From NCBI RefSeq assembly GCF_900250075.1, contig NZ_LT977071.1, positions 558,001-622,000 of the forward strand: a stretch of 64,000 nt of DNA. Direction: 5' to 3'. How positions within the stretch are numbered: position 1 is the first letter of the stretch; each line of letters begins with the position of its first letter. The notes beneath the pieces are model-generated. The model was not told where the DNA came from and ran no database searches. It saw only the letters and a list, made by a program, of their open reading frames with translations. Of the stretch, positions 4,908 through 30,177 are shown in pieces. A program made the translations under genes and the position numbers. The DNA comes from Cupriavidus taiwanensis. GTDB lineage: Bacteria; Pseudomonadota; Gammaproteobacteria; Burkholderiales; Burkholderiaceae.

Positions 4908-5288
4908 ATGGCTTCCTCGGTGTCATGAAGTTGGGAAAACGAGAGGGCGTGCGCCTCTGTTCGTGCAACTTTAAGAAGCGCCAACAGGGCCGTCCAACAC
5001 CATTTTTCGCAGGCCGCGATAACAATCCGGTATCGGGTTTTGCGCCGAGCGACCGTCCGCGCGGGCCGCGACCCAGCCCACCCAAGCGGCATTACGCGCG
5101 CAGTGACCGCCCCACGGCCGCCCCACGGAACGGCGCCCGTCCGTCGTTGCTTTCACCACAAACCCGGTCCTGCCGCCTTGACGCCATGGCCCACGCGTGG
5201 GCATCATTCGGTCTTTTCCGAAATGCGAATTATTCGCATTTGTATTGACATTTACATACAGGCCTGCCTGTCTTCCTGCTGTTCCATC
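4908..5288. other. Divergent intergenic region (381 bp), cupin operon / TonB receptor
   Basis: No credible gene is present. The left part should hold the promoter of the minus-strand cupin-dioxygenase pair. The right end (5215-5290) is markedly AT-richer and carries the Fur box and promoter of the TonB receptor. The middle (5040-5200) is GC-rich sequence in which I see nothing functional. Confidence 0.6.
5221..5241. promoter_or_regulatory. Fur box upstream of TonB-dependent receptor
   Basis: This is a perfect 21-bp inverted repeat whose centre reads TGCGAATTATTCGCA, the 7-1-7 form of a Fur site in which TGCGAAT and ATTCGCA flank a single T. It ends 47 bp before the receptor start. A TTGACA at 5245-5250 follows directly, so bound Fur would overlap the promoter. 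Iron-dependent repression of the receptor is the expected result. Confidence 0.85.
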
Positions 5289-7451
5289 ATGAGCCGCCAA
5301 GTCCTTCGCGCCGCGCGAGCGCGCGCACCCCAACCTCGCCATCTCGCCGTGCTGGCGCAACTTGCCGTGCTCGCCGGTTTTCCGGCGACGGCCGCGCTGG
5401 CGCAGCAGGCCGCGGCGCCGGCCGATGCGGCATCGCTGCCGGCGGTGACCGTGAGCGCCTCGGCGGCGGACGATTCCGGCCTGCAGCTTGAGAAAAAGGC
5501 CAGCGCCGGCGCGCTGGGCTCGCGCACGCAACTGGACACGCCCTACTCCACCACCATCGTCACCGGCGAGGACCTGGCCGAGCGCCAGGTGGCCAAGCTG
5601 GGCGATGTATTCACCATGGACGCGTCGGTCAGCGACAACGGCAACGGCTACAACAGCTGGTCCAGCTACCTGAGCGTGCGCGGCCTGCAGATCGACTGGC
5701 AGAACGGCTTCAAGATCAACGGCCTGCCGTTCGTGGCCTACGGCATCACGCTGCCGTACGAGCACATGGAACAGGTGGAGTTGCTCAAGGGCCTGCCGGG
5801 CTTCATGTACGGCTTCGCCACGCCGGGCGGCATCGTCAACTACGTCACCAAGAAGCCGACCGACACCTTCACGGCATCGTTCGAGCTGGGCTACCGTGCC
5901 GCCAATGTCTGGAGCGAGCACGTCGACCTGGGCGGCCGCGCCGGCCCGGACAATATGTTCGGCTACCGCCTGAACGCGACGCACGAAGAAGGCACCCCGT
6001 ACAACGCGCGCAATATCCGGCGCGACAGCGTGTCGCTGGGGCTGGACGCGCGCCTGACCAGGGACCTGACCTGGACCTTCGACTCGATCTACCAGGACCG
6101 CCGCGCCACGGGCCAGATGCCGTCGTTCAGCCTGTGGAGCTATGGCGATACGGCGCTGCCGGGCGCGGTGTCCGGGCGCATCCGCAACTTCGCCGGCGCC
6201 GACCAGCACCTGAACACCAACCTGCAGCTGTACAGCACCGGCCTGCGCTACCAGATCAATCCGGACTGGGCGGTCAGCACCAGCTACAGCTTTACCAAGG
6301 TCAACCGCAGCCGCAACGAAAGCACCTACAACCTGCTGAACCAGGCCGGCGACTACATCGACCAGCGCTACGACACCGCGCAGAACCAGCAGGTGGGCCA
6401 ATGGCAGGCGATGCTGGAGGGCAAGTTCCGCACCGGCCCGTTCGGCCACCAGCTGGTGGCGGGCCTGTCGTGGCAGAAGCAGATCGACCGCTATGACAAC
6501 AACGGCTTCGGCGCGGTCATCGGCACCGGCAATATCTTTGTGCCGAACACCAACACGTATTACAGCTCGACCGCCTTCAGCAAGGTGCGCAACAGCGACA
6601 TCACGCAGAAGTCGGTGTTCGCCAGCGACACCGTGCAGCTGACCGAGCGCTGGTCGGTGCTGGCCGGCCTGCGCGTGACCAATTTCGAGCAGAACGGCTA
6701 TGTGCCGGTCACCTCCAGCTACAGCAAGAACGGCGTGGTCACGCCGACGCTGGCGCTGATGTTCAAGCCGGTGCCCACCGCCACGGTCTATGCCAGCTAT
6801 GTCGAAGCGCTGGAGCCCGGCTCGATCGTGCCGGACGGCTACACCAACGCGCGCCAGCTGCTCAGCCCGATCCGCAGCAAGCAGTATGAAATCGGCGTCA
6901 AGGCCGACCAGGCCGCGTGGAGCGCGACTGCCGCGGCCTTCCGCATCGAGCGCGGCGCCGAGTACGACAGCATCAGCGGCGGCGTGCCGACGCGCCAGCA
7001 GGACGGCACCTCGATCTACCAGGGCCTGGAGCTGGCGGGCGTGTACCGCCTGGGCTCGCAATGGGAGTTCGGCGCCAGCGCGATGTATCTCGATTCGTAC
7101 TACGACAAGGGCGTCGCCAACAGCGGCAACCGCGTGGCCGGCGCGCCCGGCTTCATCATGGCCGGCCGCGTCAGCTACCGCGTGCCGTTTGTGCCGGGAT
7201 TGCGCCTTGGCTTCGACGGCAAGTACACCGGCAGCACCAAGCTCAATGCGGGGAATACGCTCGAGGCCGGCGGCTATACGGTGTTCAATCTCGGGGCCAG
7301 CTACAGCACGCGCGTTGCGGGCAAGGACCTGACGTTGCGGGCGGCTCTGAACAACGTGACCAACAAGCGCTATTGGGGCTTCCAGTACGAGAACTACATC
7401 CAGCCGGCGGATCCGCGGAGCATCAGTTTGACGGCGAGGATTGCGTATTGA
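5289..7451 (+). CDS. TonB-dependent siderophore receptor
   Basis: This outer-membrane receptor imports a ferric siderophore, powered by TonB-ExbBD. I take ATG 5289 as the start, giving 720 residues. It is followed by a signal peptide ending near AALA-QQ, whereas frames further upstream run through the promoter and Fur box. The plug domain includes the TonB-box-like LPAVTVSAS, then DTPYSTTIVTGEDLAERQ and a typical ...GLPGFMYGFATPGGIVNYVTKKP segment. The remainder is the 22-strand barrel, ending ISLTARIAY. A Fur box (5221-5241) indicates iron repression. No siderophore synthesis or ABC uptake genes are adjacent, so it may serve xenosiderophores. The ligand is unknown. Confidence 0.92.
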   Translation: MSRQVLRAARARAPQPRHLAVLAQLAVLAGFPATAALAQQAAAPADAASLPAVTVSASAADDSGLQLEKKASAGALGSRTQLDTPYSTTIVTGEDLAERQVAKLGDVFTMDASVSDNGNGYNSWSSYLSVRGLQIDWQNGFKINGLPFVAYGITLPYEHMEQVELLKGLPGFMYGFATPGGIVNYVTKKPTDTFTASFELGYRAANVWSEHVDLGGRAGPDNMFGYRLNATHEEGTPYNARNIRRDSVSLGLDARLTRDLTWTFDSIYQDRRATGQMPSFSLWSYGDTALPGAVSGRIRNFAGADQHLNTNLQLYSTGLRYQINPDWAVSTSYSFTKVNRSRNESTYNLLNQAGDYIDQRYDTAQNQQVGQWQAMLEGKFRTGPFGHQLVAGLSWQKQIDRYDNNGFGAVIGTGNIFVPNTNTYYSSTAFSKVRNSDITQKSVFASDTVQLTERWSVLAGLRVTNFEQNGYVPVTSSYSKNGVVTPTLALMFKPVPTATVYASYVEALEPGSIVPDGYTNARQLLSPIRSKQYEIGVKADQAAWSATAAAFRIERGAEYDSISGGVPTRQQDGTSIYQGLELAGVYRLGSQWEFGASAMYLDSYYDKGVANSGNRVAGAPGFIMAGRVSYRVPFVPGLRLGFDGKYTGSTKLNAGNTLEAGGYTVFNLGASYSTRVAGKDLTLRAALNNVTNKRYWGFQYENYIQPADPRSISLTARIAY

Positions 7452-20869: not shown

Positions 20870-23308
20870 TCACTGCGGCACCAGCTCCACCCTCTCCCTG
20901 CTCGCCTTCTCCACCGCCTTGCGCGTATAAACCAGCGGGAAATACTCCCCCTTGGCCCACAACGGCGCCAGGTCGCGGTAATGCGGGCTGGCCGGATTGC
21001 CAGACTGCCCCGGCGTGTTGATCACGCGCGAGGCATCCCAGTTGCCGACGTCCAGCACCATGCGGAACGACGCGCCCGCAGTCAGCCGGAAATCCGTATT
21101 GCGGTAGCTGGTGTTCATCGGCGTGAAGGCCGAGCCGCCGATCGGGCCCGCGTTGACGTTGAACTGCTGGCGTTCGGCATCGCTCAGGATCGGGTCCATC
21201 GGATGCGTGAACACGGCGGTGTGGAGCTTGCCCCATTGCCAGGCGCGCGGGTCGGGGCCGAGCTTGGCTTCGACCTCGGCCATCGCGGCCTTCAGCGATT
21301 CCAGCATGACGGCATTGCGGCGCTCCGGCGGCATCCATGGCCCGGGCTGCTCCAGCACCGCGACCACGCGCGCGGCATCGCCGGCGCCGACCAGGCGCGC
21401 GGCTTCGGGCGGCAGCGCGGCACGCACCACGGCCTGGCGCAGGTGCTTGCTGAACCAGACTTCGAACAACGCCGCGGCGGCGCTGTCGGCGCGTTCGTTG
21501 CCGTTCCAGCCGCGCAGCAGCTCCAGGCCGCGGGCCAGCTGCGGGTCGTCGCTGCGCAGGTCCTGCAGCAGCGCGACCACGCGCTGCGCCGGCAGCGACA
21601 CGGTGTCGTTCTGCCACGCCATCGAATCCTGCACCGAGCTGCGCGGATTGGCGCCGACCACCGCCTTCAGCCGGCGCGCGCGCGAACTGTCGCTCCATTC
21701 ATATCCCACGCCCAGCTTGGCGGCCGGGTGCTCGGGCGGGATGTTGTTTTCATTGGCGGTGACGATATAGCCCGGCGCGGGGTTATAGGCCCACGGCAGC
21801 TCGTCCATGTTGCGGTAGCCGGCCCATTCATAGCGGCCGTCGCCGGCCACCGGCGTCAGGCCGTCCCAGTTGGGACGCTTGACGGTCAGCCCGCCCGGGA
21901 TCCAGCCGATATTGCCGCCGGTGTCGGCATAGACCTGGTTCTCGCCCGGCGCGCCCCAGCGGTTCATGGCGGCGCGGAACTGGTCCCAGTTGCGCGCGCG
22001 CATGTAGTCCATCGAACCGAAGTACGGCGCCATGCCGTGGTCCAGCCACGCCGCGCGCAGCGCCCAGGCGTGCCCGGCGCCGGACACCAGCACCGGGCCA
22101 TGGCGGGTGAAGTCGAGGGTGACCTTGCGCGGCGCGGGCTCGCCCTTGACCGCGATCTCTTCGGTGATGGTCTCCATCGGCTCCCAGCGGCCCTTGTACT
22201 TGTACTCGCGCGGGTTGGCCGGGTTCAGCTCGTAGCCGTACAGGTCTTCCTGGTCCATGTAGAAGCGCGTCAGGCCAAAGGCAATGGTGCCGTTATGCCC
22301 GATCGAGATGCCCGGCAGGAACGGCTCGCCGGCGCCGATCACCGACATCCCGGGCGCGTTGAGATGGCTGATGTAGCGCAGGCTGGGCGCGCCATGCGAG
22401 CGGTGCGGGTCGTTGGCCAGGATCGGGCGGCCGGTGGTGGTGCGCTTGCCGCCGATGACCCAGTTGTTCGAGCCCAGGCTGCGGCCGGTATCACTGTTGG
22501 CATCGACCACGGCGTAGAGCTGGTCCAGCGGGATGCCGGCGGCCCGGGCGTCGCCCCAGGCTTCCTTCGGGAAGCGCGCGGGGGCGGTGGCCAGTTCGTA
22601 GGCGCGGCGCAGTTCGGCCGCGGGCACGGTGCAGGGGTCGATGCCGGGGTTGAGGCTGGGTTCGACCTGCGGGTCGAGCTCGCGCCGCAGCCAGTCGGCG
22701 CGCGCGGCGTGGGTCTTGGCCTCGCAGTAGAGGCGGGCGCGATCGATCTCGCCGGTGAAGTTCAGCGTCAGGCCGTGGTGGCGGATGCGCACGATGTCTT
22801 CGGCCTGCCAGCGCGACGGCTTGTAGTCGAGCTTGCGGAATTCAGGCGGCAGCAGCTCGGGCTTCTGCTCGGTCAGCGCGACGTAGGCGTTCACCCCCGC
22901 GACAAAGGCCTCGGCCACGCGCTTGGCGTCGGAGCCGTAGGCCAGCCATTCGCGGTACATGTCGCCGCGGAACAGCACCGCGCGCGCCATGCGGTCGCCC
23001 TCGGCATAGGCCGGGCCGAAGTCCCTGGCCATCTCGCCGAGCCCGCGCTTGCGCCACAGGTCGATCTGCCACAGGCGGTCACGCGCGGCCATGAAGCCCT
23101 GCGCATAGAAGGCGTCGTAGAGCGTGCCGGCATAGATATGCGGCACGCCCCAGCGGTCGACCAGCACGCTGGCGGGTTTTTCCAGGCCGGGCACGGCAAA
23201 GAGGTTCTGGCGGGCAGGCGCTTCGGCCATGGCGGCCGGGATGGCGACGGGGCTGGCGGTGGCGAGCAGGGCCAGCGCAGCGGCCAGGCGGCGGGGGGTG
23301 CGTAACAT
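20870..23308 (-). CDS. Penicillin-acylase family Ntn hydrolase
   Basis: This periplasmic autoprocessed amidohydrolase has an 812-residue precursor with signal peptide (RRLAAALALLATASPVAIPA, cleavage near AMA-EA), alpha chain, spacer and beta chain. The nucleophile is Ser280 at the self-cleavage point (GRSLGSNNWVIGG). Conserved beta-chain stretches ILANDPHR and SIGHNGTIAFGLT follow. The start at 23308 is supported by AGGAGACCTG. The family includes beta-lactam, acyl-homoserine-lactone and siderophore-precursor acylases. It lies 121 bp downstream of the Fur-linked flavoprotein operon on the same strand; whether it is part of it is unknown. Confidence 0.87.
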   Translation of the reverse strand: MLRTPRRLAAALALLATASPVAIPAAMAEAPARQNLFAVPGLEKPASVLVDRWGVPHIYAGTLYDAFYAQGFMAARDRLWQIDLWRKRGLGEMARDFGPAYAEGDRMARAVLFRGDMYREWLAYGSDAKRVAEAFVAGVNAYVALTEQKPELLPPEFRKLDYKPSRWQAEDIVRIRHHGLTLNFTGEIDRARLYCEAKTHAARADWLRRELDPQVEPSLNPGIDPCTVPAAELRRAYELATAPARFPKEAWGDARAAGIPLDQLYAVVDANSDTGRSLGSNNWVIGGKRTTTGRPILANDPHRSHGAPSLRYISHLNAPGMSVIGAGEPFLPGISIGHNGTIAFGLTRFYMDQEDLYGYELNPANPREYKYKGRWEPMETITEEIAVKGEPAPRKVTLDFTRHGPVLVSGAGHAWALRAAWLDHGMAPYFGSMDYMRARNWDQFRAAMNRWGAPGENQVYADTGGNIGWIPGGLTVKRPNWDGLTPVAGDGRYEWAGYRNMDELPWAYNPAPGYIVTANENNIPPEHPAAKLGVGYEWSDSSRARRLKAVVGANPRSSVQDSMAWQNDTVSLPAQRVVALLQDLRSDDPQLARGLELLRGWNGNERADSAAAALFEVWFSKHLRQAVVRAALPPEAARLVGAGDAARVVAVLEQPGPWMPPERRNAVMLESLKAAMAEVEAKLGPDPRAWQWGKLHTAVFTHPMDPILSDAERQQFNVNAGPIGGSAFTPMNTSYRNTDFRLTAGASFRMVLDVGNWDASRVINTPGQSGNPASPHYRDLAPLWAKGEYFPLVYTRKAVEKASRERVELVPQ

Positions 23309-23429
23309 CAGGTCTCCTCGTGTTGTGATGGCTGCAGATGTCTTGCAGTTCACACCGAAGATAGTGCATGGCCGGCCCGGGCGCGAGCGTGGCGGCCGAT
23401 CTCCGCACGCCGCGTGGTGGGCCGCGGGC

Positions 23430-25028
23430 TCAATAGACGTCGCGCCGGTAGCCGCCGTCGTCGGCCAGGCGGCGCAATGCCTCCTCGCCCAGGATCTCGG
23501 CCAGCGCGTCATGGACGCCGCCGGCCATGCCCTGCAGGCTGCCGCAGACATAAATGGCGGCGCCGTCGGCCACCCATTGCCGCACGCCATCCGCCTGCAG
23601 GCGCAGCGCGTCCTGCACGTAGCGCGGCGCGCCAACGTCGCGCGACCAGGCGTGGTCCACGCGGGCCAGCGTGCCGTCCGCGCGCCAGCGCGCCAGTTCC
23701 CCGGCGAAGAAGGCGTCATGCTGCGCCGAGCGCTCGCCGAACAGCAGCCAGTTGCGCCGCCGCCCGGCCGCAGCGCGGGCCTTGAGCTGGGCCCGCAGCC
23801 CGGCCAGCCCGGTGCCGTTGCCGACCAGGATCAGCGGCCGCTCGTCCGCCGGCGGATGGAAACCGCGATTGGCGCGGATGCGCAGCGCGATGCGGTTGCC
23901 AAGCGCGGCGTGTTCGGTCAGCCAGCCCGAGGCCAGGCCCAGGCGGCCATCGTCGTGACGGGTCTGGCGCACCAGCAACTCGAGCCGGCCGTCGCGCGGC
24001 AGCGAAGCGATCGAATATTCGCGATGCGGCAGCGGCGCCAGCGCATCCACCAGCTGCTGCGGCGCAACGCCCTGCATCGCGGCGAGATGCGGTGCGGGCA
24101 GCGGCATGCGCGTGGCCATGGCCGCGGCCAGGGTGGTGTCGGCGCCATCGCAGCGCACCGGGGTAGCGCCGTCCAGGCCAAGCTGCGCCAGCAACCGGTC
24201 GACTTCGGCCGGCGCGTGGCACGGGCCGATCTCGGCAATGTCGCCGGCCTGCCAGCCCGGCGCCGCGCCGTCCGGCGGCACCAGCACCAGATGGAAGGCC
24301 GGCGCGCCCTGGCTGCCGGGATTCAGGTGATGGCGCTGCGCCAGCCGCCAGTGTTCATAGCGCGGACGTTCCCAGTCGGCGATCTCGGCGCCGCCGCTGA
24401 GCGCCGACAGGTGGTTCTGCCAGTGGCGCAGCGCGCCGGCGTCGCCGTTGTCGACTTCGATCAGGTCGAACAGCGGCTGCGCGCGCTGGCGCTGCAGCCA
24501 GCCCTCCAGCGCATGGCCGAAGGCGCAGAAGCGCGCGTAGCTGCTGTCGCCGAGCGCGAGGATGCCGTAGCGCAACCGGTGCAGGCCATCGGCGCCCGCC
24601 AGCAGGCGGCGGGCGAAGCCCGACGCGCTGTCGGGTGCGTCGCCCTCGCCGGTGGTGCTGACCACGAACAGGGCCTGGCGGCATGCCCGCAGGCGGCGGC
24701 CATCGGCCTCGGCCAGCGACAGCAGCTGCACCGGCAGGCCCGCGCCCTGCAGCGCGGTAGCGGTCTGCAGCGCCAGCTGTTCGGCAAACCCGGTCTGGCT
24801 GGCATAGACCACCAGCGTCGCGCCGTCTTCCGAGCCGGCCAGCGCCGCCACCCGCGCGCGCCGCTGGCGGTGATGCGCCACCACCGCGCCGCAAAACCCC
24901 GCGTACGCGGCGACCACCCCAGCGGCCATGGCCATGCGCGACGGCCCCAGCACGGACAACGCCGCGCCGCCGGCCGCGGCAAGCCAGCCAGCGCCGGCGA
25001 TGGCCCACGACCTGGTGCGGCCGCTCAT
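23430..25028 (-). CDS. Membrane-anchored CysJ-like flavodoxin/FAD/NAD(P) reductase
   Basis: This protein should pass electrons from cytosolic NAD(P)H through FAD and FMN. The 532 residues begin with two membrane segments (residues 8-27 and 33-52, WAIAGAGWLAAAGGAALSVL and AAGVVAAYAGFCGAVVAHH). A flavodoxin-like domain follows (VVYASQTGFAEQLA near 73, STTGEGDAPDSASG near 125), then an FAD domain (HREYSIASLP, LASGWL) and NAD(P)-binding end (LILVGNGTGLAGLRA, YVCGSLQGMAGGVHDAL). The start overlaps the ApbE stop as ATGA, so the two are coupled. It differs from CysJ in its membrane anchor and shorter connecting domain. It is the likely electron entry point for the PepSY/DUF2271 system. Confidence 0.85.
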   Translation of the reverse strand: MSGRTRSWAIAGAGWLAAAGGAALSVLGPSRMAMAAGVVAAYAGFCGAVVAHHRQRRARVAALAGSEDGATLVVYASQTGFAEQLALQTATALQGAGLPVQLLSLAEADGRRLRACRQALFVVSTTGEGDAPDSASGFARRLLAGADGLHRLRYGILALGDSSYARFCAFGHALEGWLQRQRAQPLFDLIEVDNGDAGALRHWQNHLSALSGGAEIADWERPRYEHWRLAQRHHLNPGSQGAPAFHLVLVPPDGAAPGWQAGDIAEIGPCHAPAEVDRLLAQLGLDGATPVRCDGADTTLAAAMATRMPLPAPHLAAMQGVAPQQLVDALAPLPHREYSIASLPRDGRLELLVRQTRHDDGRLGLASGWLTEHAALGNRIALRIRANRGFHPPADERPLILVGNGTGLAGLRAQLKARAAAGRRRNWLLFGERSAQHDAFFAGELARWRADGTLARVDHAWSRDVGAPRYVQDALRLQADGVRQWVADGAAIYVCGSLQGMAGGVHDALAEILGEEALRRLADDGGYRRDVY

Positions 25029-26047
25029 GCCAGCATCGCGGCAAACGCCGGTGAAAGATGTTCGAGAAAACCGTTTGCGGTGCGCACCAGGAAGCGCGCG
25101 GCAATGCCGTGGCGGCGCGCGTGCGCCATGCCGGCGTCGGGGCCCAGCACGGTCAGCGCGGTGGACAGCGCATCGGCCAGCATGCACTGCGGGTGGATCA
25201 CCGTGACCGAGGCCAGCGCGTGGCTGGCCGGATAGCCGGTGCGCGGATCGATGGTATGGGCAAAGCGGCGGCCCTCGCTGTCGAAGTAGCGCCGGTAGTC
25301 GCCGGAGGTGGCCACCGACAGCCCGTGCAGCGCCACCAGCGTTTGCTGCGCGGCATCGCTGCCAGGCCCCGGCGGCGCTTCCAGCGCGACCCACCACGGC
25401 ATGCCGTCGGGCTTGACACCATGGCCGCGCAGTTCGCCGCCGATCTCGGTCAGGTGGTGCTCCAGGCCCTGTTCGCACAGGTAGCGCGCCACCGCGTCGA
25501 CGGCGAAGCCCTTGGCGATGGCGCACAAGTCCAGCGCCACGCCGCCCGGCTGGCGGGCACGCCTGCCGGCTACATCGACTTCGATGCGGGCCCAGCCGCA
25601 ACGGCCGCGCGCGGCCTGGACCTGGTCTGGCGACGGCGGTGCGCGGCGTGCCGGCCCCGGGGCCGGGCCGAAGCCCCACAGGTCGACCAGCGGCCCCGCG
25701 CTTGGGTCATAGGCGCCGCCGCTGTCGCGTGCCACCTGCAGCGCGGTCTGCAGCACCGCAAAGCAATCCCCCGGCAAGGCGTGCCAGCTGCCCGGCGGCG
25801 CGCGGTTGAACCGGCTCAGGTCCGAATCCGCGTCCCAGTTGCTCATCTGCGCGATCACGCGCGCGAGCACGGCCCGGATGCCGGCGCCGATGGCACCGAT
25901 GGCGCCGGCATCCGCTTGCGGCGGCAGCAGCGCCGCCACCGACCAGCTGGTGCCCATGGTGGGCCCGCCCCAGCGCTGCAGGCGCGCCCCGGCGGCGGGC
26001 GGACTGGGCGGCGCGCTCAGCGCAACGGGTACCAGGACGCGATTCAC
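25025..26047 (-). CDS. apbE: ApbE-type FAD:protein FMN transferase
   Basis: This enzyme attaches FMN from FAD to a threonine or serine in target proteins. The 340-residue reading begins at GTG 26047 (start uncertain; TTG 26056 is possible). Family motifs are GPTMGTSWSV near residue 25, SNWDADSDLSRFN, GVALDLCAIAKGFAVDAVARYL, EIGGELRGHG and the metal-site DALSTALTVLG. Unlike most bacterial ApbE proteins I see neither a clear signal peptide nor a lipobox cysteine, only a short hydrophobic start (VLVPVALSAPPSPPAAGA). It lies 14 bp after the DUF4198 gene. The DUF2271 protein encoded upstream carries a matching target motif. Confidence 0.88.
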   Translation of the reverse strand: MNRVLVPVALSAPPSPPAAGARLQRWGGPTMGTSWSVAALLPPQADAGAIGAIGAGIRAVLARVIAQMSNWDADSDLSRFNRAPPGSWHALPGDCFAVLQTALQVARDSGGAYDPSAGPLVDLWGFGPAPGPARRAPPSPDQVQAARGRCGWARIEVDVAGRRARQPGGVALDLCAIAKGFAVDAVARYLCEQGLEHHLTEIGGELRGHGVKPDGMPWWVALEAPPGPGSDAAQQTLVALHGLSVATSGDYRRYFDSEGRRFAHTIDPRTGYPASHALASVTVIHPQCMLADALSTALTVLGPDAGMAHARRHGIAARFLVRTANGFLEHLSPAFAAMLA

Positions 26048-26061
26048 CTCGTGCAACCGGC

Positions 26062-26901
26062 TTATTGCGGCAGCACTTCCACCGTCACCGCATAGACGGC
26101 GCGGCGCGACCTGGCCTGCTTGAAGGTGGTCTTGTCGTCCTTGACCTCGGCTTCCATCCAGTACATGCCCGCGGCCGGCCACTTGACGCTGAACTTGCCG
26201 TCGGCGTCGGTGGTGGCGCTGAATTCCTGCAGCTGGTCGCGGTAGCGGATGCCGCCCGGCACCACCGCCACCTTCAGGTTGCTGGCGGGCTTGCCGTCGA
26301 GCAGCAGGCGGAAGCTGGCGGTGTCGCCGGCGACCAGGTCGTTCGGGTGCGTGATCGGCGCCAGCTCCAGGCCGCGGCCGACGGTGCGCAGGCCCTTGTC
26401 GCTGGGCTTGCCGGCGGTGACGAAGGATTCGATGCGGCCCTCGGCCTGCGTGACCTGCAGGTCCTGCGCGTTGGCCGGGACTTCCCTGGCGAAGTTCTCG
26501 GCGCTGCCGCGCCAGCGCTTGGCCTGGCCGTCGATCTTGTAGCTGGCGAACAGGCCGTTGTTGACCACCGCCACGCGGTACGTGCCGGGCTGGGTCAGGT
26601 GCAGGTCGAAGGTGCTGCGGTACTTGCCGGTGGCCGCGTTCTCGGCCTTGACGGCGCTGCCGTCGGGGGCGGTCACCTGCAGGTTGTCGAGCCGCATCGG
26701 CACGTGCTCGAAGTAGAACAGGTCGTTGGAGACTGCGGCGTCGACGGTCACCCACGGATCGCTGCCGGACAGCACGGTCGCCGACGGCAGCAGCCACTGG
26801 CGGTGCGCGTGCGCGGCCAGCGGCGCGAGCGCGGCCAGCGCCAGGACAGCGGCGCGCACTGCCAGGCGGGAAGATGCGGCGGACATCAGGGAAGGTTTCA
26901 T
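26062..26901 (-). CDS. DUF4198 domain periplasmic protein
   Basis: The 279-residue exported protein has a signal peptide ending LAPLAAHA-HR. The mature sequence opens HRQWLLPSATVLSGSDPWVTVDAA, a typical DUF4198 start in which the first His would become the N-terminus after cleavage. Two Ig-like beta domains follow, the second around 190-279 (GKPASNLKVAVVPGG, DADGKFSVKWPAAGMYWMEA). DUF4198 proteins often accompany metal uptake systems. Here it is fourth from the distal end of a Fur-linked PepSY/DUF2271/ApbE cluster, with 18 bp and 14 bp spacers, so a metal- or redox-related periplasmic role is likely. An N-terminal His could help bind metal. Confidence 0.82.
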   Translation of the reverse strand: MKPSLMSAASSRLAVRAAVLALAALAPLAAHAHRQWLLPSATVLSGSDPWVTVDAAVSNDLFYFEHVPMRLDNLQVTAPDGSAVKAENAATGKYRSTFDLHLTQPGTYRVAVVNNGLFASYKIDGQAKRWRGSAENFAREVPANAQDLQVTQAEGRIESFVTAGKPSDKGLRTVGRGLELAPITHPNDLVAGDTASFRLLLDGKPASNLKVAVVPGGIRYRDQLQEFSATTDADGKFSVKWPAAGMYWMEAEVKDDKTTFKQARSRRAVYAVTVEVLPQ

Positions 26902-26919
26902 GGTCGGGCTCCGGGAAGG

Positions 26920-27444
26920 TTAAGGCTTCAGGTCGACGGTGACGCCGCCGAGTTCGTGTTCGCCCTTGGCGCGGGCGGTCTGTGCCGATTGCGGCGGCCA
27001 CGTGAACGGCACGCGCAGCAGCTCGCGCCCGCCGACTTCACGCGCGGCCTCCACCACCAGCTGGTAGTTGCCCGCGGGCAGCTTGCCCAGCGGGGCCTTG
27101 CCGTCGCTGAAGCTGACGCTGTGCTCGCCCGGCGCGCGCGTGGCGCCGGAGATGCCGTCGGCCGGCATGTGCAGGTCGCGGCCGGCCTTGCGCCACCACT
27201 GGCGCATGTCCTTGAGCCACTTGGTGCCCTCGCCGTCCTTGAGCTTGCCGTCGTACCAGACCGCCAGCGTCTGCACCGGGCTCTGGTCGGCGCGCTCGAC
27301 CCACAGCGCCACATAGGGCCGGTGGTATTCGGCCACGCTCAGGCGCGGGATATCGACCTTGACGTTCAGGTCCGCGGCCAGCGCGGGGCCGGCCAGCGGC
27401 ACGGCGGCCATGCCGGTCAGGGAGACGGAGAGCAGTCGGCGCAT
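26920..27444 (-). CDS. DUF2271 periplasmic protein, predicted FMN carrier
   Basis: The 174-residue protein has a signal peptide cleaved near GPALA-AD. The mature part is a compact beta-rich DUF2271 domain. Residues 96-102 read DGISGAT, which matches the motif ApbE modifies in NqrC/RnfG-type FMN proteins (D-x-x-S-G-A-T); Thr102 (codon 27139-27141) would carry FMN in phosphoester linkage. ApbE is encoded two genes downstream. I therefore infer a periplasmic flavoprotein that accepts electrons across the membrane. The first part of the evidence is seen; flavinylation is inference. Confidence 0.82.
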   Translation of the reverse strand: MRRLLSVSLTGMAAVPLAGPALAADLNVKVDIPRLSVAEYHRPYVALWVERADQSPVQTLAVWYDGKLKDGEGTKWLKDMRQWWRKAGRDLHMPADGISGATRAPGEHSVSFSDGKAPLGKLPAGNYQLVVEAAREVGGRELLRVPFTWPPQSAQTARAKGEHELGGVTVDLKP

Positions 27445-27500
27445 ATCGGAGAAACCTCGTCAGTGAGATGCAGGAAGAAGATCGGCGCGAGCGCGACCGA

Positions 27501-28157
27501 TCAGTGGATAAACAGGATCGCCAGCAGCACCGGCACTACCAGCCCCAGCCCCACCAGCGGCCAGGTCGCCACGCGCCCGCCGGCATGCAGCTTGAGCAGG
27601 AACAGGCCGGTCACGCAGAACACCAGGCACGCCAGCGCGAACGCGTCCAGGAACAGGCTCCACGCCGCGCCGGTGTTGCGGCCCTTGTGCAGGTCGTTCA
27701 GGTACGAGATGGCCCCGCGCGAGGTGCTCTCGTACTGCGCCTCACCGCTGTCGAGGGCGATGCTGACCCAGGCGTCGCCGCCCGGGCGCGGCAGCGCCAC
27801 GTAGATTTCATCGGCGGACCATTCCGCCTCGCGCCCGCTGGCGTCGATATCCAGCGCCTGCGCCAGCCAGTCGGCCAGCACCGCCGGCACCGGCGCCCTG
27901 GTCTCGCTTGCCTGGGCGGTCTCAGCCGGGGCCGCGCTCCGGACCTGTTCGAGCACGCGCATGGGCAGCGTCGCGTGACGGGTCTGCACTGCGGGCCTGG
28001 CCTCGATCTGGCCCGCGTGGTTCAGCGTGAAGCCGGTGACCGCGAACAGCATCATCCCGACCAGGCAGATCGCGGAACTGATCCAGTGCCACTGATGGAG
28101 ATGCTTGAGCCAGAAGGCGCGGCGCTGCTGGCCGGCGGCCGGCTGGGTGTCGGTCAT
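27501..28157 (-). CDS. PepSY-associated transmembrane protein
   Basis: This inner-membrane protein of 218 residues has one N-terminal membrane helix (WISSAICLVGMMLFAVTGFTLNHA), a periplasmic PepSY-like domain (about 70-150) and two C-terminal helices. His-rich stretches HLHQWHW (19-25) and NDLHKGRNTG near the membrane surface are typical of PepSY_TM proteins such as PiuB and may hold haem or metal. It is the first gene of the cluster leading to DUF2271, DUF4198, ApbE and the flavoreductase, with a Fur box 72 bp upstream. It probably relays electrons across the membrane to the flavinylated periplasmic protein. Confidence 0.85.
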   Translation of the reverse strand: MTDTQPAAGQQRRAFWLKHLHQWHWISSAICLVGMMLFAVTGFTLNHAGQIEARPAVQTRHATLPMRVLEQVRSAAPAETAQASETRAPVPAVLADWLAQALDIDASGREAEWSADEIYVALPRPGGDAWVSIALDSGEAQYESTSRGAISYLNDLHKGRNTGAAWSLFLDAFALACLVFCVTGLFLLKLHAGGRVATWPLVGLGLVVPVLLAILFIH

Positions 28158-28190
28158 TGCGGTGGATGGGCGGCGCTGGCCGCCAAAGGC

Positions 28191-28212
28191 ATTGTGACAT
28201 TTAAGTCACAAT
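28191..28212. promoter_or_regulatory. 8-bp inverted repeat in the PepSY leader
   Basis: The arms ATTGTGAC and GTCACAAT are separated by ATTTAA, 34 bp before the PepSY start. It resembles a CRP site (TGTGA/TCACA) but the spacing is 8 rather than 6, so the cognate regulator is unknown. Confidence 0.45.
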
Positions 28213-28228
28213 AAGATCAAAAACAAAA

Positions 28229-28243
28229 GGATAATCGTTCTCA
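28229..28243 (-). promoter_or_regulatory. Fur box of the PepSY-DUF2271-DUF4198-ApbE-flavoreductase operon
   Basis: On the minus strand the site reads TGAGAACGATTATCC, a good 7-1-7 Fur match within a locally AT-rich stretch. It lies 72 bp before the PepSY start and so predicts iron repression of the five-gene cluster. Confidence 0.7.
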
Positions 28244-28373
28244 TTTGAATTCGCAACGAGACGTCGGTCGCGACTGTTTACAGTCCGTTACAGCCCCCGG
28301 CTGAGGCACCGGGCTCGCAAATACTTACGATACGACTCGCACGTAACTCGTTTACCCCAATGCCCATTAACTT

Positions 28374-28387
28374 GCGGTGCGTACCGC
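28374..28387. promoter_or_regulatory. Short inverted repeat before TetR gene
   Basis: GCGGT-GCGT-ACCGC lies 21 bp before the preferred TetR start. Position and symmetry fit an autoregulatory TetR operator, but the arms are short. Confidence 0.35.
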
Positions 28388-28407
28388 TTGTAAATAGAAT
28401 GCGCTGC

Positions 28408-29094
28408 ATGATGAAAAAGTTTGCTGCTATCTCTTTGACCCAAGAGGCCGCAAATGCGTCCTCCCAGGCGAAGCGCCCACGTCGAACGCAGGCCGAACGC
28501 GTCGCGGAATCTGATCGCCGCCTCCTGGAAGCGGCAACCCGCCTGGTCGCCGAGCGTGGCTACACCCATACAACGCTCGAGGCCACAGGCATTGAAGCGG
28601 GCTATAGCCGAGGCCTGGTACAGCACCGCTTCGGTACCAAAGACGGTCTGCTCGAAGAGCTCATCAAGCACATCGCAGACACCCACCGCGAGCGCTTGCT
28701 GGCGCGCATGCGCGGGCTCAGGGGTCTGGATGCCATCTTTTGCGAAATCGACTGCTATCTGGAAGGCATGGACAACCCGTCCGTCAATTCCCGCGCGTTC
28801 TTTGTGCTGATGCTCGAATCCATCGGGCCGGCGCCACATATCCGACCGACTTTCGCAGCCATCAGTGCACGCTGGCACCGCGCTATCACGCGGCACATCG
28901 AAGCCGGCCAGCGAGCCGGCGAGATTCGCCCTGACATCGACGCAGCAAATGAAGCGCAGTTGCTGATCGCCACCGTACGCGGTCTGCGCACGCAATCCAT
29001 GCTGAGTCCGACGACCAGCAATGTCGCGGTCGCCATCCAGGCGCTGAAGAACAGCCTGAGCGCCCGGCTGCGCGTGCCACTACAACAAGACTAG
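28408..29094 (+). CDS. TetR family regulator
   Basis: This is a 228-residue regulator. The helix-turn-helix is at about 25-70 (RLLEAATRLVAERGYTHTTL, then GYSRGLVQHRFGTKDGLLEEL), followed by an all-helical ligand domain. The start is uncertain: ATG 28408 gives a normal short N-terminus, while ATG 28360 adds 16 residues and would run through a candidate operator. It precedes a Bug receptor gene by 117 bp on the same strand and may regulate it. Third codon positions are less GC-rich than in neighbouring genes, hinting at later acquisition. Confidence 0.85.
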   Translation: MMKKFAAISLTQEAANASSQAKRPRRTQAERVAESDRRLLEAATRLVAERGYTHTTLEATGIEAGYSRGLVQHRFGTKDGLLEELIKHIADTHRERLLARMRGLRGLDAIFCEIDCYLEGMDNPSVNSRAFFVLMLESIGPAPHIRPTFAAISARWHRAITRHIEAGQRAGEIRPDIDAANEAQLLIATVRGLRTQSMLSPTTSNVAVAIQALKNSLSARLRVPLQQD

Positions 29095-29211: not shown

Positions 29212-30177
29212 GTGAAGGTCATCGCAACCATGCTGCTTGGGGCGGCAAGTTTGATTGCTTCGGCGACATCTGCACAGCCGGCTTATCCAGCCCGGCCGAT
29301 CCGTTTGATAGTAGGCTTCGCCGCCGGCAGCATCACTGACATCACGGCGCGGCAGATTGCCGTCGGAATGGGTAAAGAGCTGGGCCAGCCTGTCGTGGTG
29401 GACAACCGCACCGGCGCCGGCGGCAATATCGCCAGCGCCGAGCTGGCGCGGGCTCGCCCCGACGGCTACACGCTAATGGCGACTACACCCGGGCAGCTGG
29501 TGGTGAATCCGTTGACCCAGAAAGCCATCGGCTTCGACCCTGAGACCAGGTTCACGCTCATCAGCCTCGTCAATGAGGGTCCCTTCGTCTTGGTGGTGCC
29601 AGCAAATTCCAGATTCCAAAGCGTGCCGCAGCTGGTAGCGTGGGGCAAGACCAATGGGGGCAAGCTCACCTACGCCTCGGCCGGCATCGGCACAACCTCG
29701 CACATCGCTGCCGAGATGTTGCAGGTATTCGGCGGCATCAAGGCCGTGCATGTGCCCTATCGCGGAGGCTCGCAGGCGACCAACGACCTCATTGCGGGGC
29801 GTGTCGATTTCATGGTCGACAGTCTCGGCTCCGTCGCGCAGCAAGTGCAGGCAGGTCAGATCCGGGTTCTGGCAACGGGTGGCGCCAGCCGCCTGCCTCA
29901 GTTTCCGGACATACCGACGCTATCGGAAACGTACCCGGACTTCATCGCTTCGTCCTGGCTAGGCGTGACAGGGCCGCCAGGTCTTGCGCCGGCTGTCGTC
30001 ACCGCCCTGGCCAGGGCGGTCGAACGCAGCGCACGCGATCCACATTTCGTGGCAAGCCTCGAGCAGCGCGGCGGCCGTGTCGCCAAGCCGGGACCGGAGG
30101 CGTTCTCGGCGCTGGTGGACAAGGAACGCGCTCGCGTCGAGCGCACTATCCTGAGGGCGGGAATCACGCTTGAATGA
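29212..30177 (+). CDS. Bug/TctC-type tripartite tricarboxylate receptor
   Basis: This 321-residue periplasmic receptor starts at GTG 29212, behind AGAAGGAGACAACC. The signal peptide ends near ATSA-QP, followed by PIRLIVGFAAGSITDITARQ and VVVDNRTGAGGNIASAELA, the ligand loops of the family. It stands alone apart from the TetR gene upstream. No TctA/B or enzyme genes suggest the ligand. Its 3' end overlaps the opposing chrA gene by 14 nt. Confidence 0.9.
   Translation: MKVIATMLLGAASLIASATSAQPAYPARPIRLIVGFAAGSITDITARQIAVGMGKELGQPVVVDNRTGAGGNIASAELARARPDGYTLMATTPGQLVVNPLTQKAIGFDPETRFTLISLVNEGPFVLVVPANSRFQSVPQLVAWGKTNGGKLTYASAGIGTTSHIAAEMLQVFGGIKAVHVPYRGGSQATNDLIAGRVDFMVDSLGSVAQQVQAGQIRVLATGGASRLPQFPDIPTLSETYPDFIASSWLGVTGPPGLAPAVVTALARAVERSARDPHFVASLEQRGGRVAKPGPEAFSALVDKERARVERTILRAGITLE

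Follow-up and report, generated by a model that had tools for sequence, protein, structure and literature searches.

A probable Fur-controlled metal reductase operon of the flavinylation-associated PepSY type in Cupriavidus taiwanensis

Gene clusters in which PepSY-like membrane proteins occur with ApbE, DUF2271 and DUF4198 were described in the 2021 survey of Meheust et al., where a role in iron reduction was proposed (PMC8238504). According to the same source, the ApbE of Amantichitinum ursilacus attaches flavin to a DUF2271 protein of that species, at the threonine of an [S/T]GA[S/T] motif. In Caulobacter crescentus, the genes CC3059-3063 encode the same five families as the locus considered here; control by iron and Fur is described for them, and both promoter fusions and Fur sites have been reported (PMC3751524). 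Moreover, insertions in Caulobacter CCNA_03155-03159 are reported to reduce fitness under EDTA, in a study whose authors assigned the PepSY-type homologue to COG3295 (PMC11870441), and expression in iron-limited Alteromonas agrees with an iron role (PMC7190382). The present analysis concerns a five-gene operon of Cupriavidus taiwanensis that encodes a PepSY protein, a DUF2271 protein, a DUF4198 protein, an ApbE and a flavoreductase. It lies in a window (the whole stretch analysed, 64,000 nucleotides of contig NZ_LT977071.1 in assembly GCF_900250075.1, positions 558,001 to 622,000), which is part of contig 2 of a 6.77-Mb assembly and whose proteins have their nearest named relatives in Cupriavidus. 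The operon probably encodes an assimilatory metal reductase that is under Fur control and belongs to the flavinylation-associated PepSY type. How iron is released in the periplasm is poorly understood in the use of siderophores and chelates, particularly in cases without a known inner-membrane permease for the siderophore.

The five genes are intact and co-directional, with successive gaps of 56, 18, 14 and -4 bp (Table 1), the last being an ATGA overlap at the ApbE/flavoreductase junction. Third-position G+C is 0.87-0.94 across all five, and the Pfam scores all exceed the curated cut-offs (PepSY_TM_like_2 282.7 bits, DUF2271 182.4, DUF4198 213.2, ApbE 286.1, Flavodoxin_1 85.4 and NAD_binding_1 30.0). 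An original prediction, made by a model from the letters and open reading frames (ORFs) of this DNA, had proposed five co-directional genes of these families with short spacers or overlaps, led by a Fur-like box. Coordinates and scores confirm the gene arrangement and the family names, and the box is indeed present ahead of the operon. The statement in that prediction that the function is not established, however, was too cautious, as the DUF2271 flavinylation in A. ursilacus and the Fur control and EDTA fitness data in Caulobacter have been published.

Electrons would enter the system through the flavoreductase, which combines a flavodoxin domain with an FAD/NAD(P) module and has its nearest PDB relatives in CysJ (E 4.8e-44). 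Its N-terminus appears by eye to hold two hydrophobic helices followed by a basic stretch. According to the positive-inside rule, a basic stretch after the helices places the catalytic part in the cytosol, where that of the window enzyme is predicted to lie. It does not qualify as a true CysJ, as it scores 220 bits against the NCBIfam cysJ cut-off of 668. The proposed acceptor, DUF2271, starts with a segment (MRRLLSVSLTGMAAVPLAGPALA) that looks leader-like by eye, and the SGAT within its motif ADGISGATR fits the published [S/T]GA[S/T] flavinylation motif. The acceptor threonine is found in 141 of 142 aligned rows and is replaced by serine in one, while the adjacent letters drift. Several relatives, among them loci L102, L142, L144 and L136, have a motif relaxed to TSPT, TGPT, SAAT and the like with the acceptor threonine retained; the loci concerned have apbE.

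The PepSY protein would connect these two carriers. In an alignment of 134 rows (133 of 135 matches plus the window protein), His24 and His157 are conserved in 133 rows each, His47 in 125, His218 in 122 and His191 in 109. The structure model, which contains no haem, has three long helices at residues 7-46, 164-191 and 196-217 (pTM 0.64). Going by the positions of these helices, one face of the membrane would have His24 and His191 and the opposite face His47, His157 and His218, a placement that would suit two haems. We infer haem in this protein by analogy with FoxB, as the latter is described in PMC11334425. That source also presents the membrane cores of MsrQ-like and PepSY proteins as structurally alike, which would be compatible with an MsrPQ-like supply of electrons to periplasmic repair or peroxide defence, induced along with iron starvation. 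Such a function is highly improbable, however, given that the operon has no MsrP or peroxidase gene, that the nickel form of the DUF4198 relative IsDUF4198 is reported to have weak peroxidase activity (PMC12537917) and that the phenotype described for the Caulobacter operon is one of chelator exposure.

With regard to DUF4198, cleavage at a site placed by eye between AHA and HRQW would leave a mature chain that starts with histidine (position 26805). This N-terminal histidine is present in 132 of 133 rows, the remaining row being a gap, in an alignment of 132 of 139 matches plus the window protein that excluded longer ORFs; His34 and His153 are further histidines. The structure model (pLDDT 91.8) shares its fold with Zcp and the Ni-binding IsDUF4198 in Foldseek, and DUF4198 may thus be where the relay binds metal. 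The original prediction described two exported proteins of unknown function; it overlooked the metal-binding fold family of DUF4198 and the lack of a recognisable signal peptide on ApbE. A 2025 report of a DUF4198 metal held at the N-terminal histidine makes the role of this last component concretely testable.

These solved relatives, IsDUF4198 (PDB 9gcb) and Zcp (9mhi-9mho), are 18-19% identical to the window protein in their best-chain Foldseek rows, and they raise the question of whether copper, nickel or zinc might be what the relay reduces or delivers, Fur control then being cross-talk. IsDUF4198 is reported to bind nickel with an affinity of 18 nM and to adjoin NikR-type genes (PMC12537917), Zcp structure entries contain copper, zinc and cobalt according to their titles, one of which names His29, His31 and His142 for a mutant, and CrpH, a PepSY_TM protein of Bordetella, is reported to support haem-copper oxidases (PMC13038864). 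Nevertheless, a metal other than iron seems quite unlikely. The operon has a Fur-like box, its Caulobacter counterpart is described as regulated by iron and Fur with an iron-limited phenotype under EDTA, and the window protein has Trp18 in place of the ligand His18 of IsDUF4198, so that the site differs from that of IsDUF4198 as numbered.

The arrangement of the five genes recurs well beyond this genome. Among the 40 genomes of the relatives set (this genome included), 21 have a DUF2271 match above the cut-off, all within the genus, and so do 75 of 397 genomes sampled across the phylum. The exact order PepSY-DUF2271-DUF4198-ApbE-reductase, whose conservation had been suggested as a check, was then surveyed by means of models built on the five proteins of the window. 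It was found in 48 of the 80 nearest named loci, which are the best 80 of 592 relatives and lean toward close kin. In the phylum sample, 24 of 78 places also had it, the others being partial or changed sets or unrecognised (17 of the 78 were unrecognised by the window-seeded DUF2271 model). The operon type, in which five genes hold the predicted parts of one relay, recurs across Pseudomonadota. Clusters of a Pseudomonas/Stutzerimonas type (L078, L089, L091, L137, L140 and similar) are devoid of apbE and retain PepSY, DUF2271, DUF4198 and the reductase.

Regarding regulation, the Fur-like pattern ATGAKAAYNATTMTCAT was composed after the box had been seen, together with the general Fur consensus. 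A genome-wide search with this pattern (6.77 Mb, up to 3 mismatches) returned 89 strand-matches, as opposed to 1 for a reversed control pattern, and the box of the operon is among 7 genomic sites with 0-1 mismatch. At up to 2 mismatches there are 23 distinct sites, 12 of which adjoin iron-uptake-type genes, namely seven TonB receptors, TonB, FeoB, two PepSY_TM genes and this operon; the site of the FeoB gene lies about 420 bp before the FeoB match. Upstream regions could be scored for 72 of 158 relative loci, the rest having no model-recognised PepSY gene close upstream of DUF2271 or too short an upstream sequence. A Fur-like site was present in 28 of these 72 at up to 2 mismatches and in 38 at up to 3, compared with 1 and 6, respectively, of 1440 shuffled controls. 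Furthermore, the box is kept across the aligned Cupriavidus upstream regions. A sigma-70-type promoter-like site was not found in 23200-28700. The operon is probably switched on by iron shortage.

A second Fur-like site of the window, with 2 mismatches, is located at 5223-5239, near the beginning of an ORF (5040-7451, plus strand) for a TonB-dependent receptor, the actual start codon of which probably follows the site. The genome also encodes four longer PepSY_TM proteins (G000:C2:809689, C2:1230233, C1:1707885 and C1:2962020); Fur-like sites occur within 700 bp of two of their genes, and a third is 2.4 kb from a site preceding a TonB receptor. These genes bear on whether the relay might be a dedicated siderophore reductase that serves one imported ferric siderophore, like FoxB, FpvG or HiuB. 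The PepSY proteins FoxB, FhuB and HiuB are reported to be required for particular siderophores (PMC10866019, PMC13001220), and 29 of 74 five-family loci have a TonB receptor homologue in their stored flanks, a count given without a background rate. However, the other 45 have none there, and no TonB receptor adjoins the operon, the nearest one found being that at 5040-7451, about 16 kb away and with its own box. The longer PepSY_TM proteins would be available for such tasks, and the EDTA fitness effect described in Caulobacter points to a general role. A dedication to one siderophore thus appears unlikely.

Taken together, the domains, the CysJ-like module, the PepSY histidines, the DUF2271 threonine, the gene order, the Fur-like box, the FeoB site, the DUF4198 fold and the literature lead to the following proposal for a Fur-controlled metal reductase. 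Under iron shortage, Fur would leave the box and the five genes would be expressed. In the diflavin reductase of the inner membrane, FAD would accept electrons from NAD(P)H of the cytosol and pass them to FMN. The PepSY protein, interpreted as a haem protein with bis-His ligation, would carry them across the membrane. In the periplasm, DUF2271 with a covalent FMN placed by an ApbE would accept the electrons and reduce Fe(III) or ferric chelates. DUF4198 would bind metal at its N-terminal histidine site and present it or hand it on, and Fe(II) would enter through FeoB. Anatomy, conservation and literature support the original prediction that electrons cross the membrane and reach a flavinylated protein in the periplasm, with a link to iron; iron-linked transmembrane electron transfer is thus supported, and the 'perhaps' of that prediction on ferric siderophores in particular still applies. 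We infer the electron order, iron as the final substrate, metal on the window DUF4198 and FeoB as the importer.

Several observations weigh against this proposal. The relay is read here from genes and predicted structures, and there is no transporter gene inside the operon. Of the 23 Fur-like sites, 11 have no assigned iron gene, the domain scan having covered nine of these 11 (all but L219 and L224). The solved DUF4198 relatives bind nickel or zinc, copper and cobalt, not iron. When the PepSY model was compared with solved structures, nothing was matched at E <=0.001 and the solved FoxB (7ABW) was absent among the matches listed, which leaves the likeness to FoxB without fold support. Lastly, the ApbE of the operon seems to lack an export signal, a misfit with periplasmic flavinylation.

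This last point raises the question of where protein flavinylation occurs. The N-terminus of the operon's ApbE (MNRVLVPVALSAPPSPP) shows no clear leader. An ApbE anchor is present in 67 of 74 five-family loci, and 54 of these 67 ApbEs have an RVLxP-type N-terminus, as opposed to a single one with a lipobox. The best 10-residue hydropathy reaches at least 1.8 in 12 of the 67 ApbEs, compared with 55 of 73 DUF2271 and 72 of 72 DUF4198 proteins; hydropathy is a crude test of export, and its cut-offs as well as the RVLxP motif were chosen after the sequences had been viewed. The second ApbE of the genome, on the other hand, has a twin-Arg-like leader with consecutive arginines (RRRR) before a hydrophobic stretch, and an ApbE is encoded elsewhere in 19 of 19 tested genomes whose DUF2271 locus is without apbE. 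With cytosolic ApbEs known to exist (PMC12052999), the relay could stand while its leaderless ApbE acts away from the periplasm, either by adding FMN in the cytosol before export or by modifying a cytosolic target, with the second ApbE serving DUF2271. This is possible but rather doubtful: it relies on crude hydropathy and predicted start codons, the ApbE of the published A. ursilacus test is described with a signal peptide, and a loose twin-Arg test was passed by just 3 of 73 DUF2271 segments, which gives no clear sign that the flavoprotein is exported in folded form.

The role of DUF4198 in the relay and the apparent lack of an export signal on ApbE look like the less explored points of this operon type. 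A more specific version of the reductase proposal unites both. DUF4198 would be the terminal iron-binding periplasmic partner, with a His1/His34/His153 site altered from the nickel site of IsDUF4198, where Fe(III) would be reduced by FMN-DUF2271 and from which Fe(II) would go to FeoB, and the leaderless ApbE would load FMN on DUF2271 before export. This version is put forward tentatively, with a low probability.

Table 1. Features of the operon and its upstream region (positions within the window)
Feature	Position	Strand	Details
Membrane-anchored flavodoxin/FAD/NAD(P) reductase, CysJ-like, proposed electron entry	23430..25028	-	532 aa; Flavodoxin_1, NAD_binding_1
ApbE FAD:protein FMN transferase, no recognisable signal peptide	25025..26047	-	GTG start, 340 aa; PF02424 E 3.8e-85
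DUF4198 exported protein, proposed metal-binding partner	26062..26901	-	279 aa; PF10670 E 6e-63
DUF2271 protein, probably exported, proposed FMN-carrying electron carrier	26920..27444	-	174 aa; PF10029 E 4.2e-54; motif ADGISGATR
PepSY_TM_like_2 membrane protein, proposed haem electron carrier	27501..28157	-	218 aa; PF16357 E 2.4e-84, PF03929 E 7.1e-11
Perfect palindrome TTGTGAC-N6-GTCACAA	28192..28211		between Fur box and PepSY start
Fur-like box ATGAGAACGATTATCCT	28228..28244	-	one mismatch to pattern ATGAKAAYNATTMTCAT
Direct repeat TGTAACGGACTGTAA (YGTAAYG-N3-YGTAA), candidate second-regulator site	28278..28292	-	upstream of Fur box; Cupriavidus conservation

Two additional elements of the upstream region, whose patterns were defined after inspection of the sequences and the alignment, suggest regulatory inputs besides Fur. 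We take the direct repeat TGTAACGGACTGTAA to resemble that of a response regulator. Among 57 PepSY genes examined, 11 have its pattern in their upstream region, every one of them from Cupriavidus, compared with 0 of 1140 shuffles. Its single other match in the genome is an identical 15-mer at L254 3904-3918, 140 bp before an HlyD/AcrB-type efflux operon, pointing to a candidate second regulator common to both operons. The palindrome is the sole exact copy in the genome, where matches with 2 mismatches are no commoner than in the control, and 4 other Cupriavidus loci have its exact arms around a spacer that differs. In L056, where it has 3 mismatches, both end letters co-change and one inner pair would be G-U, which makes an RNA hairpin and a DNA operator equally possible.

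As for the neighbouring genes, a TetR-type regulator (28360-29094, plus strand) and a TctC-type receptor (29212-30177, plus strand) are divergent from the operon. The former is probably unrelated to it, since no homologue was found among the ORFs of the 158 relative loci. About 120 bp downstream of the flavoreductase gene, a co-directional gene of the penicillin-amidase family (23308-20870, minus strand) was not counted in the operon; its identity as PvdQ was rejected, the match of 56 bits being weak against the PvdQ model cut-off of 950.

The five-gene operon type is already known from Caulobacter and from the 2021 catalogue, and the window offers a clear and largely expected example of it. 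Compared with individual known proteins, the window reductase shares with CysJ the flavodoxin and FAD/NADPH module and differs in its two N-terminal membrane helices, seen by eye, and in an operon without a sulfite reductase partner. The window PepSY protein has in common with the siderophore reductases FoxB and PiuB a PepSY-associated membrane region, conserved histidines and a link to iron. Nevertheless, proteins of the FoxB type are described with tandem PepSY domains and four membrane helices (PMC10866019), whereas the window protein has three long helices in 218 residues, and its PF03929 match, limited to profile positions 172-291 of 295, is not that of a tandem PepSY protein. The locus agrees with the PepSY-like systems of Meheust et al. 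in that it has a PepSY-like protein (PF03929/PF16357) clustered with ApbE and DUF2271, and its model shows the three transmembrane helices by which these proteins were defined. Those systems are further characterised by a signal peptide on one or more of ApbE, FMN-bind, DUF3570 and DUF2271, for which the candidate in the window is the start of DUF2271 that looks leader-like by eye, ApbE showing none. Some PepSY proteins of that survey are described as fused to NAD-binding domains, while in the window a separate membrane-anchored diflavin reductase is encoded. In Caulobacter segnis (L102), the exact order is found with 48-62% identity to the window proteins over the aligned stretches. The DUF2271 of that species has TSPT where the window protein has SGAT. 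A search of L102 for the direct repeat of Cupriavidus gave no match, and the best matches listed for this locus did not include the palindrome. The closest described counterpart is CC3059-CC3063 (CCNA_03155-03159) of Caulobacter, for which the same order is given: a transporter (COG3295/PepSY), DUF2271, DUF4198, ApbE and a flavoprotein of the sulfite-reductase type.

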